A stretch of 64,000 bases of DNA from Salinicoccus carnicancri Crm (GTDB taxonomy: Bacteria; Bacillota; Bacilli; Staphylococcales; Salinicoccaceae), in assembly GCF_000330705.1 (NCBI RefSeq), contig NZ_ANAM01000001.1, positions 62,001-126,000 on the forward strand, written 5' to 3'. Position numbers and translations under genes: made by a program. Under the pieces are notes generated by a model that did not search any database, was not told where the DNA came from, and saw nothing but the letters and a program-made list of their open reading frames with translations. Of this stretch, positions 28,258-56,905 are shown one piece after another. Numbering within the stretch: the stretch's first letter is position 1; each line of letters opens with the position of its first letter.

Positions 28258-28959
28258 ATGGCTAAAAAAATTGTTGTAGTGGACGACGAGAGACCCATTG
28301 CGGATATATTGGAATTCAACCTTGAAAAGGAAGGATATGAGGTGCATTGCGCCTATGACGGTAATGATGCACTCGAGCTGATACTCGAGGTTGTGCCGGA
28401 TATCGTACTGCTCGATATTATGCTGCCGGGCATGGACGGCATGGAAGTATGCCGTGAAGTCCGCAAGAAGCATGAGATGCCCATCATCATGCTGACTGCC
28501 AAAGATTCCGAAATCGACAAGGTGCTCGGTCTTGAACTCGGTGCGGATGATTATGTTACGAAGCCGTTCTCCACCCGCGAGCTGATCGCCCGCGTCAAGG
28601 CGAACCTGAGAAGGAATCAGGAAACCGCCCCGAAAGAGAAGGAAGTGGAGACAAACAATATACAGATAAAAGACATCACGATATTGCCGGATTCCTTTGC
28701 AATTAAAAAGCACGGCAGGGATATTGAACTCACCCACCGTGAATTTGAGCTGTTCCATTATCTGGCGAAGCACCTGTCACAGGTGATGACGCGGGAACAT
28801 CTGCTTGAGACGGTATGGGGCTACGACTATTTCGGAGACGTCCGGACAGTCGATGTGACAGTCAGAAGACTGAGGGAAAAGATTGAAGATGATCCATCCC
28901 ATCCGGAATACCTGATGACGCGCAGAGGCGTGGGGTATTATATCCAGGGTGATGAATAA
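28258..28959 (+). CDS. walR: Response regulator WalR (YycF)
   Basis: 233-aa OmpR-family regulator, essential in most Firmicutes, controlling cell-wall hydrolase genes. Receiver domain: DDERP acid pocket, phospho-acceptor Asp in [14 protein letters not shown], and lysine in TKPFS. C-terminal winged helix: [25 protein letters not shown]. Phosphorylated by WalK, encoded 16 bases downstream. GAGGGAAAG precedes the ATG. WalR-like sites are seen in this window upstream of both transglycosylase genes at 55-57 kb. Confidence 0.97.
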
Positions 28960-28975
28960 AGGAGTTTACACGTAA

Positions 28976-30817
28976 ATGAAGCAGTTTTTCAGGAACCTTC
29001 AGTCCCTCCATATAAAGCTTGTCATCATCTATGTCCTTCTCATCGTCATCGGCATGCAGATCATCGGCCTTTATTTCACGAATACGCTCGAGAAGGAACT
29101 TACAGGCAACTTCCAGGACAATATCGAAACACAGGTCAGCCTCATCGATACGCGTATCAATGAACTGTATACGGAATATGGGGATGACCGCGAGGTAATG
29201 CAGGAAGAAATCCAGAAGCTTCTCTCCGACTACGGCAATCGTCCGGAAATCGAAGAAGTACGTTATGTCAATTCAGATAACCTGCTCGTGGCAACGAGCA
29301 AAATATCCAATGAATCCAATATCGGTTCCAGGATAAATGCCCCACTCACCGAGGAGTCCATCTCAACGGGAACGAGGAACGACGAGATCTATGTCAACGT
29401 CGAACAGGACCATCAGCGCATATGGCTTCTGAACCAGCCCGTTCTCCAGGACAGCCAGATTCTCGGTGCTATTTATGTTTCCTCGAATATCGAAACCGTG
29501 TATCAGCAGCTTGAAGCGATCAACAACACTTTCATCATCGCGACCCTGATATCGCTCATCATTACGAGCATACTTGGTATATTCATCGCGCGCACAATCA
29601 CGCGCCCGATCACGGATATGAGGAATCAGGCACTCCTGATGTCCGAAGGGGATTATACATCGCGCGTTAAAATATACAGTAATGATGAAATCGGCGAGCT
29701 TGCAGGCTCATTCAACATACTTTCAAAACGTGTCCAGGAGGCGCAGGCGAATACTGAGAGCGAAAAGAAACGCCTTGATTCCGTCATCACCCACATGTCG
29801 GACGGCATCATCGCGACCGACAGGCGGGGCCGTATACGCGTAGTGAACGATATGGCGCTTGATATGGTCAATATGCGCGGCGGGGACATATATGGGGAAA
29901 GCATGCTCGAACTGCTTGGACTCGATCAGGACATGCACCTCGAGGACATTCAGGAGATGAATGAAAGCCAGCTGATGTTCCCCGAAAAAGATGATCAGGA
30001 GACGACCATCCGTATCAACTTCTCGACCATTGTGAAGGATACGGGATTCATCAACGGCTATATCGCCGTACTTCATGACGTTACGGATCAGGAGCGGATC
30101 GACAACGAGCGCAGGGAGTTCGTGGCAAATGTCTCCCATGAACTGCGTACCCCGCTGACATCCATGCGGAGCTATCTCGAAGCGCTGCAGGAAGGAGCAT
30201 GGCAGGATGAGAATCTGGCACCGAAATTCCTTGGTGTGACCCGTGAAGAGACCGACCGGATGATCCGGCTGGTCGAGGATCTGCTTCAGTTGTCCAGGAT
30301 GGATAATGAGGCAGAGGAACTGACCAAGGAAATCGTCGATTTCAATATGTTCTTAAACCGTACCATCGACCGTTTTGAAATGACTCATAAGGATGATGTC
30401 GAGTTTGTCAGGAATATTCCGGATACGGCCATATTCACTGAAATTGCGATGGATAAAGTTGGTCAGGTGCTGGACAATGTCATTTCCAATGCTATCAAAT
30501 ATTCCAACAGCGAGAACAAGAGAGTCGAGTTCCATGTCAAACAGAACCGTCTCTACAACCGCATGACGGTACAGATCAAAGATAACGGACTCGGCATTCC
30601 CGGCAGCAAAGTGGACCGCATATTCGAGCGGTTCTACCGCGTCGATAAAGGCCGTGCCCGCAAGATGGGCGGTACAGGCCTCGGCCTCGCCATTTCCAAA
30701 GAGATCATCGAGGCGCATGACGGCAGGATTTGGGCGAACAGCGTAGAGAATGAAGGTACGACGATTTTCATCAATCTGCCTTGTGAAACGCTTGAGGAGG
30801 ATGTCTGGGATGTTTAG
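28976..30817 (+). CDS. walK: Sensor histidine kinase WalK (YycG)
   Basis: 613 aa. Two membrane segments (about residues 12-33 and 183-205) flank an extracellular sensor domain; then a HAMP linker ([12 protein letters not shown]), a PAS domain (about 260-370), the phospho-acceptor helix [15 protein letters not shown], and an ATPase domain ([30 protein letters not shown]). It partners WalR. The 3' end overlaps walH by eight bases, so translation of the accessory proteins is likely coupled. Confidence 0.97.
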
Positions 30818-33845: not shown

Positions 33846-34481
33846 CTGTTTATCGGAAAACGTCTCTTTGACCCAGGACCCGTCCACATCATTTTCGCTG
33901 ATGCCATTCTCACTGAATACGATCTCCCCGTATTCAGTGAATTCATTGTCGGTGTACCGGTAGACGAAAGGAATGCCCGCTTTCTCGTAAAGTTTATACA
34001 TCAGGGCACGTACCCCTTTTCCGGCCGTCATGAAGCTGATTTCGAGCTTATCCTCATCCACACTGGTATCCATCGCATACCCTTTCATGCCCCAGTGTAT
34101 TTTCGTCCACTCATAAGCATCCGGCACGCCGAATTCAATCAGATTTTTATAGTATTTCTCGCCCAGATCAATGCGCTCCTCAGCAACAAGGATCTGCTCC
34201 TGCTCCTGCACAGCAGCCTCACTTAACGTTTCATCAAGATCGACAAAATCACTGCCTTCAAGATCCTCGACCAGCTTTTTCTTATCGTCGTCATCGAGTG
34301 TATTGTAATAAGAAGCAATAGCGGCATCCTGATAAGGTGCGGCGTGGATTTCAAGCCCTTCCGGGACTTTTTCGATCACATTGAAGTCCATTTCGTCATC
34401 CTTGTTGAAAGCGAAATCTATCATATGATTTAGGTCGTCTAATTCATGAAATTTAAGTATACTATAGGCAAGAATCGGCAT
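33843..34481 (-). CDS. Hypothetical protein, YubB/Api92-like ferredoxin-fold candidate
   Basis: 212 aa, acidic, no signal peptide or membrane segment. I do not recognise a named family with certainty. The C-terminal half (WTKIHWGMKGYAMD, then FMTAGKGVRALMYKL and a YTDNEFTEYGEIVF end) has the layout of the DUF1281/Api92 group: a W-x-x-x-x-W-G block, a strand with F-x-T-A, a helix, and a final acidic strand. Start: the ATG at 34481 follows AAGGGGTG by five bases. It is divergent from rlmH and sits in the walJ-rlmH gap, a usual place for accessory genes. Confidence 0.6.
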   Translation of the reverse strand: MPILAYSILKFHELDDLNHMIDFAFNKDDEMDFNVIEKVPEGLEIHAAPYQDAAIASYYNTLDDDDKKKLVEDLEGSDFVDLDETLSEAAVQEQEQILVAEERIDLGEKYYKNLIEFGVPDAYEWTKIHWGMKGYAMDTSVDEDKLEISFMTAGKGVRALMYKLYEKAGIPFVYRYTDNEFTEYGEIVFSENGISENDVDGSWVKETFSDKQ

Positions 34482-34580
34482 AAGAACACCCCTTTTACAT
34501 ATTTTGAATGTCACCTTAATTATTTAACAATTTACACGAACAGTCAAGCTATTACAAATAGGACGAAAGGAGGAAACATC

Positions 34581-35060
34581 GTGAAAATCACTGTAATCAC
34601 AGTTGGGAAACTGAAAGAGAAATATTGGCAACAGGCTGTCGAAGAATACAAAAAGCGCATCAGCGCCTATGCCAGACTCGAACTGATTGAAATACCGGAT
34701 GAAAAAGAACCCAGCAACGCCGGGGGTAAGGACATAGATATCATCAAGGAAAAAGAAGCCCGGAAGATCCTCGCCAAAATAAAAGACACACAGCACGTCG
34801 TCACACTAGAAATCAGGGGCAAAGCATACACCAGTGAAAAACTCGCCGAAGAATATCAGAAATGGATGAACACGGGAAAAAGTGACGTCGCCTTCATCAT
34901 CGGCGGCAGCAACGGCATAGGAGACAGCGTAAAGCAGAGGTCCGACCAGGAAATCAGCTTCGGTTCCCTCACCTACCCCCACCAGATGATGAAAGTCATG
35001 CTGCTCGAGCAGATTTTCAGAGTGAATAAGATATTGAGGAATGAGAATTACCATAAATAG
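34581..35060 (+). CDS. rlmH: 23S rRNA pseudouridine-1915 N3-methyltransferase RlmH
   Basis: 159 aa, SPOUT-class methyltransferase acting on assembled 70S ribosomes. GTG start with AAAGGAGG upstream; KITVITVGKLKEKYW at the N-terminus, FIIGGSNGIG for the SAM knot, and PHQMMKVMLLEQIFR then NYHK at the C-terminus. Its last codons are the attachment site (orfX attB) for SCC elements in staphylococci. The gene is intact here. A diverged copy of its 3' end lies at 38759-38886. Confidence 0.97.
   Translation: MKITVITVGKLKEKYWQQAVEEYKKRISAYARLELIEIPDEKEPSNAGGKDIDIIKEKEARKILAKIKDTQHVVTLEIRGKAYTSEKLAEEYQKWMNTGKSDVAFIIGGSNGIGDSVKQRSDQEISFGSLTYPHQMMKVMLLEQIFRVNKILRNENYHK
35038..35060 (+). other. rlmH 3'-end attachment site (SCC attB position)
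   Basis: The last 23 bases of rlmH end in ATTACCATAAATAG, the counterpart of the staphylococcal SCC core ending in TATCATAAATGA. It matches 15 of 23 bases of the relic end at 38864-38886 without gaps. The following 270 bases (35061-35330) hold no gene, only an AT-rich stretch and a terminator. Confidence 0.6.
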
Positions 35061-54866: not shown

Positions 54867-55616
54867 TTACCACCAGTTATTCGCTTCACGGAACTGAATG
54901 GCTTCTTCAACTGAACCATAACGCTCTTGAGCATAGTTGATCATGCCTTCTGTCTGTTTCTCAACAGAGCCAGTGCCCCATGATTCTTTAGTCTGTCCGA
55001 GGCCTTGGTAGCCCAGTTCATTGACTGCATTCGGGTCACCGCTTGATTCAGGCATCACGATACTTTGCCACATGGCTTCTGTACCACCGGCATTGAGGAA
55101 TTGCTCCTTAGTGGAGCCGCCGGCTGATTCGGATGACTGAGTATTTTCTGCAGGTGCAGCTGCCTGGATATCTTCAGTTTGCTGTTCAGTGTTTTCAGCA
55201 GGCTGCTGAGTCTGCTCTGCGTTTTCCTCGGTTACCTGAGGTGCAGCTTCCTGCTGCACAGTGTTCTCTGCAGGCTGCTGAGCCTGTTCCGTATTTTCTT
55301 CGGTTACCTGAGGTGCTTCCTGTGTCTGTTCTGTTTGAGCAGTTTCATTCTGCGGCATTTCAACACTGTAGCCACCATATGACCATGTGTAGTAAGTGCC
55401 GTCGGATTCGAAATTATAGTTAACGCCGTCGACCGTGAAGTTGTAGCTGTACTCCCCTTCATGGATTGGCGCGTTATTCAATTCGCTTGAATTGGACTGA
55501 GCCATCTGTGCAAGCTCGTCTTTATTGATTTCCGATGCTTCTGCGTTCTGGTCTGCTGCGACACCAGTTACTCCCAAACCTAATGCCAGTGTCGTAGTTA
55601 AGATTGTTTTCTTCAT
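54867..55616 (-). CDS. Secreted IsaA/SceD-type lytic transglycosylase (copy 1)
   Basis: 249 aa. Signal peptide (KKTILTTTLALGLGVTGVAA, cleavage near AEAS), a short N-terminal domain with YSYNFTVDGVNY and YTWSYGGYSVE, a Gln/Glu/Pro-rich linker with two copies of an APQVTEEN...QQPAENT repeat, then the C-terminal transglycosylase domain: QSIVMPESSGDPNAV (Glu of MPESSG is the likely catalytic residue), GYQGLGQTKESWGTGS, and the end FREANNWW. It cleaves peptidoglycan strands outside the cell (family knowledge). A tandem paralogue lies 312 bases upstream. WalR-like half-sites precede it. Confidence 0.92.
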   Translation of the reverse strand: MKKTILTTTLALGLGVTGVAADQNAEASEINKDELAQMAQSNSSELNNAPIHEGEYSYNFTVDGVNYNFESDGTYYTWSYGGYSVEMPQNETAQTEQTQEAPQVTEENTEQAQQPAENTVQQEAAPQVTEENAEQTQQPAENTEQQTEDIQAAAPAENTQSSESAGGSTKEQFLNAGGTEAMWQSIVMPESSGDPNAVNELGYQGLGQTKESWGTGSVEKQTEGMINYAQERYGSVEEAIQFREANNWW

Positions 55617-55740
55617 AAATTCTAATTCCTCCAGATAATCTATAATGATCTTGGATGTTTTGGTTCGTTATAAGCTGTACATTTCAAAGCCTTGCTTTTT
55701 CAAGACAGTGCCTAATATATCACATACATTTCCTCTGTAG

Positions 55741-55768
55741 GTTACACTCAAATAATAATGCAATTACA
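55741..55768 (-). promoter_or_regulatory. WalR-like box upstream of transglycosylase copy 1
   Basis: Read leftward: TGTAAT, five bases, TATTAT, five bases, TGTAAC. The consensus is TGTWAH-N5-TGTWAH; outer half-sites match fully and the middle one has a single mismatch. A -10 candidate TATATT lies downstream in the direction of the gene. The same module is found upstream of copy 2. Confidence 0.65.
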
Positions 55769-55867
55769 TAGACCTGCATTGGTTGTAAAGGTGTGTAATA
55801 TTGGTAAACTGCTGTATTATTTCTGAAAATTGTTTTTAGTGGCAGGTGTATCCAATTTTGAGGATAA

Positions 55868-55910
55868 GAAAAACCCGTACGATCCGGGCTGACCGGATAA
55901 TACGGGTTTG
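55868..55910 (-). terminator. Terminator of transglycosylase copy 2
   Basis: Leftward: AAACCCGTA and ATCCGG pair with CCGGAT and TACGGGTTT, then TTTTC. It separates the two tandem genes, so each has its own transcript. Confidence 0.85.
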
Positions 55911-55928
55911 TATATCAGCTGGCTGATC

Positions 55929-56618
55929 TTACCACCAGTTGTTTGCTTCACGGAATTGGATGGCAGCATCAACTGAACCATAACGCTCTTTAGCGTAGTT
56001 GAGCATACCTTGAGTCTGCTCCTGGACGGAACCAGTACCCCATGATTCTTTAGTCTGTCCGAGGCCTTGGTAGCCATTCGGACTTACAGCGTTCGGGTTA
56101 CCTGTTGATTCAGGCATAACGATGCTTTGCCACATAGCTTCTGTGCCGCCGGCATTAAGGAATTGTTCCTTAGTGGAGCCGCCAGTTGACTGTGTGCTTT
56201 CTGCAGGCGCAGCTGCCTGTACGTCTTCTTGCTGAGCTGGCTCTTCATAGCTTTCTTCAACCTGAGGTGCCTCCTGAGTCTGCTCTTGCTGCTTTACTTC
56301 TTCAGTTACCTGAGGTGCTTCTTCAACCTGTTCTGTTTGAGCAGGTTCATTTTGTGGTAGTTCATTACTATAGCCGCCATAAGACCATGTGTAGTTATAG
56401 CCATCGGATTCGAAGCTATAATTGACACCGTCAACTGTGAAGTTATAGCTGTACTCCCCTTCATGGATTGGCGCGTTATTCAATTCGCTTGAATTGGACT
56501 GGGCCATCTGAGCAAGCTCGGCCTTATTGATTTCGGATGCTTCTGCGTTTTGGTCTGCTACGACACCGGTTACTCCCAAACCTAATGCAAGTGTTGTAGT
56601 TAAGATTGTTTTCTTCAT
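55929..56618 (-). CDS. Secreted IsaA/SceD-type lytic transglycosylase (copy 2)
   Basis: 229 aa. Signal peptide and first 60 residues are nearly identical to copy 1 (VVADQ instead of VAADQ), as is the C-terminal catalytic domain (QSIVMPESTGNPNAV, GYQGLGQTKESWGTGS, FREANNWW). The middle linker differs: it is shorter, with EEVKQQEQ and EESYEEPAQQED and no second APQVTEEN...AENT repeat. Tandem duplication with later change in the low-complexity part is the simplest reading. Confidence 0.92.
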   Translation of the reverse strand: MKKTILTTTLALGLGVTGVVADQNAEASEINKAELAQMAQSNSSELNNAPIHEGEYSYNFTVDGVNYSFESDGYNYTWSYGGYSNELPQNEPAQTEQVEEAPQVTEEVKQQEQTQEAPQVEESYEEPAQQEDVQAAAPAESTQSTGGSTKEQFLNAGGTEAMWQSIVMPESTGNPNAVSPNGYQGLGQTKESWGTGSVQEQTQGMLNYAKERYGSVDAAIQFREANNWW

Positions 56619-56750
56619 AACTTTTACTTCCTCCAGTAATTGTACTTTATATAATAGTTATTGTTTTTTATATCGTGATGTGCAAGAACACGTTTAAGCT
56701 TTACTTTTTTCAAGACAATGAACAATATATCATAAAAAAATACATAGTGT

Positions 56751-56778
56751 GTTACAGCCTAATAATAAAGAAGTTACA
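56751..56778 (-). promoter_or_regulatory. WalR-like box upstream of transglycosylase copy 2
   Basis: Read leftward: TGTAAC, five bases, TATTAT, five bases, TGTAAC; the same three-half-site layout as at 55741-55768 although the bases between have diverged. The remainder of the 56619-56995 gap has the duplicated AT-rich upstream sequence and a hairpin. Confidence 0.65.
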
Positions 56779-56905
56779 AAACCCGGTTACTTATGTAATA
56801 TTGAGATATTCTTGTATTATTTCCGTATTATTTCTGAAAATTCGTCATATTGCAGGGGTTTTCTTTGAATTGAGGTGTATACTCAGTTTGACTATCCTTT
56901 ATAGC

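Follow-up and report, generated by a model that had tools for sequence, protein, structure and literature searches.

A conserved WalR-type promoter module with three half-sites upstream of tandem isaA-like genes in Salinicoccus carnicancri Crm

In the 64,000-nucleotide stretch of the Salinicoccus carnicancri Crm genome analyzed here (the window), two adjacent genes are each preceded by three similar hexamers at 11-base intervals. Do these hexamers form an operator for the response regulator WalR, the essential regulator of the cell wall in these bacteria, and is the third one a peculiarity of this locus? The WalR (YycF/VicR) operator of Bacillus, Staphylococcus and Streptococcus, TGTWAH-N5-TGTWAH, resembles the window arrays in its hexamer, its direct repetition on one strand, the 11-base period seen at the second and third half-sites, its place next to the -35 position and the kind of gene it controls. 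The window arrays differ from it in having three half-sites instead of two, a middle half-site that is mostly TATTAT and a conserved inverted half-site further upstream.

Two exact arrays upstream of paralogous genes

The first-pass annotation placed the pattern TGTAAY-N5-TATTAT-N5-TGTAAC, with an exact 11-base period, upstream of both genes, and both copies (arrays A and B, Table 1) do match it without a mismatch. Allowing up to three mismatches, the window holds two matches, compared with 0.05 expected from shuffled sequence. A scan of the whole genome for the three-part pattern, as that annotation had proposed, returned arrays A and B as the sole exact copies and two more matches with two mismatches, against none in the backward control (at most two mismatches allowed). 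A chance origin of the array is ruled out by the shuffles, this genome-wide control and the host-family genome counts given below. The bases between the half-sites were said to have drifted, and the comparison of the two copies agrees: the half-sites are identical at 17/18 positions and the spacers at 5/10. Outside the array, identity is 11/26 in the upstream stretch, 7/18 between the array and the -10 element, 9/9 in the extended -10 element and 19/37 in the bases after it. TATTAT lies one mismatch from TGTWAH, giving each adjacent pair one mismatch at both genes, so no adjacent pair fits TGTWAH-N5-TGTWAH exactly.

Table 1. Positions of the genes, arrays and promoter elements within the window
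Feature	Position	Strand	Description
walR (yycF)	28258..28959	plus	NCBIfam YycF cut-off passed; proposed array binder
walK	28976..30817	plus	Cognate sensor kinase; NCBIfam WalK cut-off passed
Gene A	54867..55616	minus	249 aa; secreted; N-terminus IsaA/SceD-like, C-terminal domain AggPromo_Cterm
Leader hairpin, gene A	55689..55706	minus	GTCTTG...CAAGGC at predicted mRNA 5' end; -6.2 kcal/mol, p 0.08
Extended -10, gene A	55714..55722	minus	TGATATATT; predicted; hexamer starts 21 nt past proximal half-site
Array A	55741..55768	minus	TGTAATTGCATTATTATTTGAGTGTAAC; 0 mismatches; period 11
Array A, proximal half-site	55741-55746	minus	TGTAAC
Array A, middle half-site	55752-55757	minus	TATTAT
Array A, distal half-site	55763-55768	minus	TGTAAT
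Inverted half-site, copy A	55794..55799	minus	ATTACA (TGTAAT on other strand); 25 nt from distal half-site
18-base block, gene A	55814..55831	minus	AATTTTCAGAAATAATAC; identical in both copies
Gene B	55929..56618	minus	229 aa; tandem paralogue of A, upstream of A
Extended -10, gene B	56724..56732	minus	TGATATATT; predicted; spacing as at gene A
Array B	56751..56778	minus	TGTAACTTCTTTATTATTAGGCTGTAAC; 0 mismatches; period 11
Array B, proximal half-site	56751-56756	minus	TGTAAC
Array B, middle half-site	56762-56767	minus	TATTAT
Array B, distal half-site	56773-56778	minus	TGTAAC
Inverted half-site, copy B	56794..56799	minus	ATTACA; 15 nt from distal half-site
18-base block, gene B	56825..56842	minus	AATTTTCAGAAATAATAC; identical in both copies

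The two proteins are 83% identical. Their description as IsaA/SceD transglycosylases stands for the N-terminus, where profile A1 finds proteins of another GTDB family (f4) aligned from residue 1, whose N-termini resemble those of IsaA and SceD. The transglycosylase label itself rests on that N-terminus. The C-terminal domain is aggregation-promoting-factor-like (NCBIfam NF052397), and Pfam gave no match to either window protein at 0.001, the transglycosylase (SLT) domain included; one f4 orthologue had an SLT match with an E value of 0.017, below the cut-off. The structure model for gene B was poor (pLDDT 52), so that its fold search, which gave no match at E≤0.001, carries little meaning, and a profile search of the PDB with the C-terminal part of the protein returned no relative. 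Protein relatives at 11 of 13 named loci come from Salinicoccus, Lacicoccus or Jeotgalicoccus, the nearest of the 13 being from Candidatus Salinicoccus stercoripullorum (91%).

Conservation and promoter layout in the host family

We compared 35 distinct promoters collected by script, 34 from the host family and one from genome G033 of a neighbouring family. All 35 are also among the loci found by protein similarity, independent of the pattern. A further host-family promoter outside this set (L010) fits the layout as well, so that the array is present in 36/36 distinct extracted promoters of the gene (35 from the host family and one from the neighbouring family). In 35/35, the half-sites stand at -22, -11 and 0, and the hexamer of an extended -10 element (TGNTAYANT) begins 21 nt past the proximal half-site, with 19-23 nt allowed. 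The proximal hexamer is TGTAAC in all 35 promoters and the distal one is TGTAAC in 26, TGTAAT in 8 and TGTGAT in 1; the middle reads TATTAT in 29, TATCAC in 3, and TATTAC, TCTTAT and TTTCAT in one each. At its second position, the middle hexamer is off the consensus in 36/36.

Orthologues in sister species, to which the first-pass annotation had pointed as decisive, carry the array in 26/33 host-family genomes, and these 26 coincide with the genomes whose copy of the gene is of full or nearly full length. By pattern alone, with at most one mismatch, 25/33 genomes match, against 0/33 in the backward control; in three further genomes, G022-G024, the array has two mismatches and a TATCAC middle. 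If either G or A is accepted at the second position of the middle, exact triples occur in 25/33 host-family genomes (47 matches, compared with 6 in the backward control), and 29 of the 47 lie at an isaA-like gene. In G028 and G029, the protein matches by its N-terminal part only, and the one promoter read there (L093) is of the SceD type. Outside the host family, the TATTAT version occurs with at most one mismatch in 4/124 genomes, compared with 8/124 in the backward control; these four are G033, a true orthologue, and three seemingly unrelated matches. Several other matches were set aside: those in G028 and G030 (L058, L059), two of the 25 genomes, have none of the conserved flanking boxes and were judged unrelated, as were the lone matches in G039, G055 and G056 and a third match in G011.

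Could common descent account for all of this, with promoters too young to have drifted and a spacing without function? The host family is one clade, and the window copies, with their 83% protein identity, look like a tandem duplication. The spacers and flanks have diverged, however. Across 16 non-redundant promoters, the three half-sites hold 1.81, 1.69 and 2.00 bits of information, as against 0.98 and 0.76 bits in the spacers and 0.47 and 0.55 bits in the flanks, and in another GTDB family (f4, below) the -10 element follows a similar array at an equal distance. We therefore consider descent without function extremely improbable.

The layout at genes A and B is that of an extended -10 promoter without a -35-like hexamer, and no TTGACA with fewer than three mismatches was found 16-18 nt before the -10 hexamer in any of the 35 promoters. 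Counting the -10 hexamer as -12 to -7 from the predicted start site, the half-sites lie at about -61, -50 and -39. For genes A and B, the predicted start falls near 55707 and 56717, respectively. The proximal half-site would thus adjoin the -35 position, an activating position, upstream of a cell-wall gene. Beyond the array, an inverted half-site occurs at -42 or -43 in 15/16 non-redundant promoters of the host-family set. Copy A reads TTTACA there and has its ATTACA one turn further upstream. An 18-base block, AATTTTCAGAAATAATAC, is identical in both copies, and blocks like it were seen by eye in other host-family promoters. The reverse complement of this block includes GTATTATTT, which resembles a half-site.

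The predicted 5' end of the gene A transcript can fold into a hairpin (Table 1), which may be an mRNA stabilizer; copy B has nothing comparable (-0.1 kcal/mol, p 0.81). In a stretch of 27 nt round the predicted 5' end, folding reached p≤0.05 against shuffles in 10/16 non-redundant promoters of the host-family set, compared with 1/16 and 0/16 in windows further downstream and 2/23 in a selected f4 set (33 non-redundant promoters minus 7 of SceD type and minus L154, L160 and L163, of which L160 and L163 carry the triple at one and two mismatches). Rfam gave no match at its gathering threshold between 54800 and 57000.

Counterparts in a second family

The promoters of related genes extracted from f4, mostly of genus g14 (by inference, Staphylococcus), number 93. 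They come from the best matches of longer lists and do not represent every gene copy; 76 were in the original set and 17 were found on a later check, while L201, which matches by the C-terminal part alone and offers no usable start, was left out. Among the matches listed, the best triple lies within one mismatch in 53/93 (49/76 and 4/17), and the best triple has no mismatch in 29, one in 24, two in 22, three in 14, and four or five in 4; the 17 later promoters comprise 4 with an exact triple and 13 with none within one mismatch. The mean for the best triple in shuffles of the 76 promoters was 4.06 mismatches, and for 62/93 promoters, again among the matches listed, 0/30 shuffles equaled the real triple. 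The 29 exact cases (of the 93 among the matches listed) read TGTWAH at all three places, with N4 or N5 as the first spacer. One of these layouts, TGTAAT-N4-TGTAAA-N5-TGTAAT, precedes the gene for the protein in L226, which we take to be S. aureus IsaA.

The f4 array is tied to its promoter much as in the host family. In the 66 f4 promoters that could be anchored (10 of the 76 lacked an anchor and were left out of these counts), the proximal hexamer lies 21 nt (56 promoters) or 22 nt (10 promoters) from the -10 element, and 24 of the 33 non-redundant ones have TGTAA at -21 or -22. The inverted half-site stands at -42 in 16/33 non-redundant f4 promoters. Because the distal spacer is mostly N4, which makes the period 10/11 rather than 11/11, the role of the distal half-site may be a different one in f4. 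The middle begins with TGT in 26 of the 33 non-redundant anchored promoters (TGTTAT in 11, TGTAAG in 7, TGTTAA in 4, TGTAAA in 3 and TGTAAT in 1) and reads TTTTAT or TTTCAY in the other 7. Since so many counterparts have a canonical middle at the same place, the most natural reading of the TATTAT of the window is as the equivalent of a canonical half-site in which A replaces G at the second position, and putatively as a weakened WalR half-site. As far as sequence comparison can tell, the third half-site is old and not peculiar to the window; the view that it is unusual, if taken to mean restricted to this locus, is not supported, as 53 of the 93 f4 promoters among the matches listed have the triple within one mismatch.

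The triple is not universal in f4. Among the matches listed, 40/93 promoters have none within one mismatch. The SceD-type promoters L210, L212, L213, L216 and L220 instead combine a distal TGTAAN pair with TTTTAT-N5-TGTAAC ahead of the -10 element; L207 and L208, although counted among the 53, are also of SceD type and carry a different array. In six f4 promoters the proximal hexamer has been lost (L128, L130, L131, L200, L205 and L206), and several from other genera have a pair or a single hexamer only. In g14, the TATTAT version with at most one mismatch is found in 0/84 genomes. A looser pattern gives at least one triple in 82/84, with about 168 matches compared with 45 in the backward control, so about a quarter of them may be background.

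The f4 middles also bear on whether WalR might bind the outer half-sites alone, 22 bp apart, with TATTAT acting as an A+T-rich element through bending or an UP-like contact with the alpha subunit. The middle lacks the G of TGT in 35/35 promoters and in L010, while the outer sites keep theirs, and by our numbering the middle spans about -50 to -45, a region of UP-like contacts. Moreover, the footprinted VicR site at copY has an N15 spacer, one more helical turn (PMC4168254). This reading leaves the TGT in the middle of 26/33 non-redundant anchored f4 promoters unaccounted for, and the host-family variant TATCAC keeps T1, T3, A5 and Y6 yet loses A+T content. We regard binding to the outer pair alone as unlikely.

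One g14 triple lies in a different setting. TGTAAY-N5-TGTAAT-N5-(T)GTTAT (L229:1501-1528, plus strand; L230:1501-1528, minus strand) stands about 90 bp before a gene for a small secreted protein of 169-170 aa, and similar strings recur among the g14 matches.

WalR as the candidate binder and a model for the array

As the first-pass annotation stated, walR and walK lie in the same window, and both pass their NCBIfam cut-offs (Table 1). Their proximity carries no weight, because WalR acts in trans. The DNA-binding domain of this WalR has 81/100 aligned residues in common with its S. aureus counterpart (2zxj), and in both arrays TGTWAH-like hexamers repeat directly on one strand every 11 bases. 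The proposal of a WalR-type module is sustained by the direct-repeat layout, the three half-sites in phase and the activator position; the arrays depart from an exact TGTWAH-N5-TGTWAH by the mismatch in TATTAT. We do not treat the exact consensus as defining, because footprinted sites depart from it too. Several footprinted VicR sites likewise have one mismatch per pair, and that at bmsH has a half-site TATTAA (PMC4168254, Table 1 for the former).

Exact two-part sites number 29 in the genome, compared with 13 in the backward control, so nearly half of them may be background. Four of the 29 precede genes for LysM-CHAP, CHAP, NlpC/P60 and LysM-transglycosylase proteins. Others precede a PhoP-like response-regulator gene (L180) and a pstS-family gene (L193), and PhoP is the main confounder for WalR as the binder. 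PhoP boxes are TTWACA repeats, which on the opposite strand appear as TGTWAA repeats. L180, L193 and L234 carry such repeats, which are thus not unique to WalR, and three of the four hexamers at L180 and L193 end in A. In the isaA-type array, however, the outer half-sites have C or T as their last base in 35/35 promoters, so that the opposite strand does not read TTWACA, and isaA is an experimentally tested target of WalR in S. aureus (PMC6624279). That another OmpR-family regulator, PhoP foremost, binds the array seems to us very unlikely, and we infer that the binder is WalR. The three repeats at L234 (1501-1527, minus strand), from an f4 genome, read TGTAAA; a gene for a PhoP-like regulator follows them, and they may serve as its operator.

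Published work describes the WalR motif as 17 bp with two half-sites, TGTHH[N]6WGTNDD (PMC10746227). In the S. aureus isaA promoter, two WalR sites, at 49 and 228 nt before the start site, have been mutated; WalR activates this gene, and the site nearest the start counted most (PMC6624279, PMC10746227). By our numbering, the site at 49 nt fits half-sites 2 and 3, falling on the middle half-site. The literature covered here yielded no third half-site at isaA, although we do not present it as new to the literature. At gtfC and gcrR, which have two half-sites each, the stretch protected by VicR is 33 bp (PMC4168254). The S. epidermidis WalR orthologue YycF protects more DNA, 39 to 87 nt; its targets are different (the arlR, qoxB, pitR and ica promoters), and the consulted part of that report describes no three-half-site layout (PMC5405149). 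Streptomyces PhoP, likewise of the OmpR family, also acts on direct repeats with 11-nt units, and the CCEUES model proposes that core units of high affinity assist additional molecules in binding units of lower conservation; its PHO boxes belong to a different regulator, have a different repeat sequence and hold their units in pairs (PMC6283541).

These precedents make a dimer with a third protomer, or a dimer in two registers, a fitting occupancy for the array. Three half-sites cannot hold two full dimers. The first-pass annotation had suggested cooperative binding by more than one WalR dimer, which is possible and not required; one dimer plus one protomer, or a dimer in two overlapping registers, would fit at least as well as multiple dimers.

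The explanation that we consider probable is an activator-dependent promoter with three putative WalR half-sites, a dimer on half-sites 2 and 3, and a stabilizing distal half-site. Each gene would have its own such promoter, combining the extended -10 element TGNTAYANT, the absence of a -35 element and the head-to-tail array, whose half-sites at about -61, -50 and -39 would all face the same side of the helix. Half-sites 2 and 3 are the most likely docking place for a dimer of phosphorylated WalR, and the protomer at the proximal site, beside the -35 position, would contact RNA polymerase in a class II-like activation. The distal half-site may add a third protomer or hold the dimer in its second register, and in either case would stabilize binding across the weak middle. 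With that middle kept weak as TATTAT in the host family, firing should need more phosphorylated WalR than with the canonical middle of staphylococcal promoters. More tentatively, and with appreciable doubt on our part, many isaA-type promoters of these families may form a distinct class of WalR operator, in which a head-to-tail three-protomer array has an inverted fourth half-site upstream and a weak middle that gives a steep on/off response to the level of phosphorylated WalR. The S. aureus isaA site, treated so far as a two-half-site motif, would then make up two thirds of one.

On the sequence comparisons made here, this is a conserved WalR-type promoter module of an ordinary kind, whose layout goes beyond the two-half-site motif. 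If the operator does have three half-sites in phase, searches with two-half-site motifs describe it incompletely. This matters for a gene used as a reporter of WalR activity in S. aureus (PMC6624279). The mutant of the 49-nt site would also need rereading, for the first TGT of its two-part motif was changed to CCC and the distal half-site was seemingly left intact (PMC6624279). The array further offers a simple test case of an OmpR-family regulator on an odd number of half-sites.

Two observations lie apart from the isaA-like genes. A triple TGTTAC-N5-TGTAAY-N5-TGTAAT (L191:1501-1528, minus strand, which is G000:C6:361669-361696; L236:1501-1528, minus strand) stands about 110 bp before a gene for an NAD(P)-binding protein in G000 and G008, and similar strings occur in G004 and G011. 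Elsewhere in the window, the open reading frame at 34446-35060, whose product ends in YHK, is presumably rlmH, the gene at which staphylococcal SCC elements insert; downstream of it, we noted by eye a stretch with SDR, LysR and GIY-YIG-like genes.
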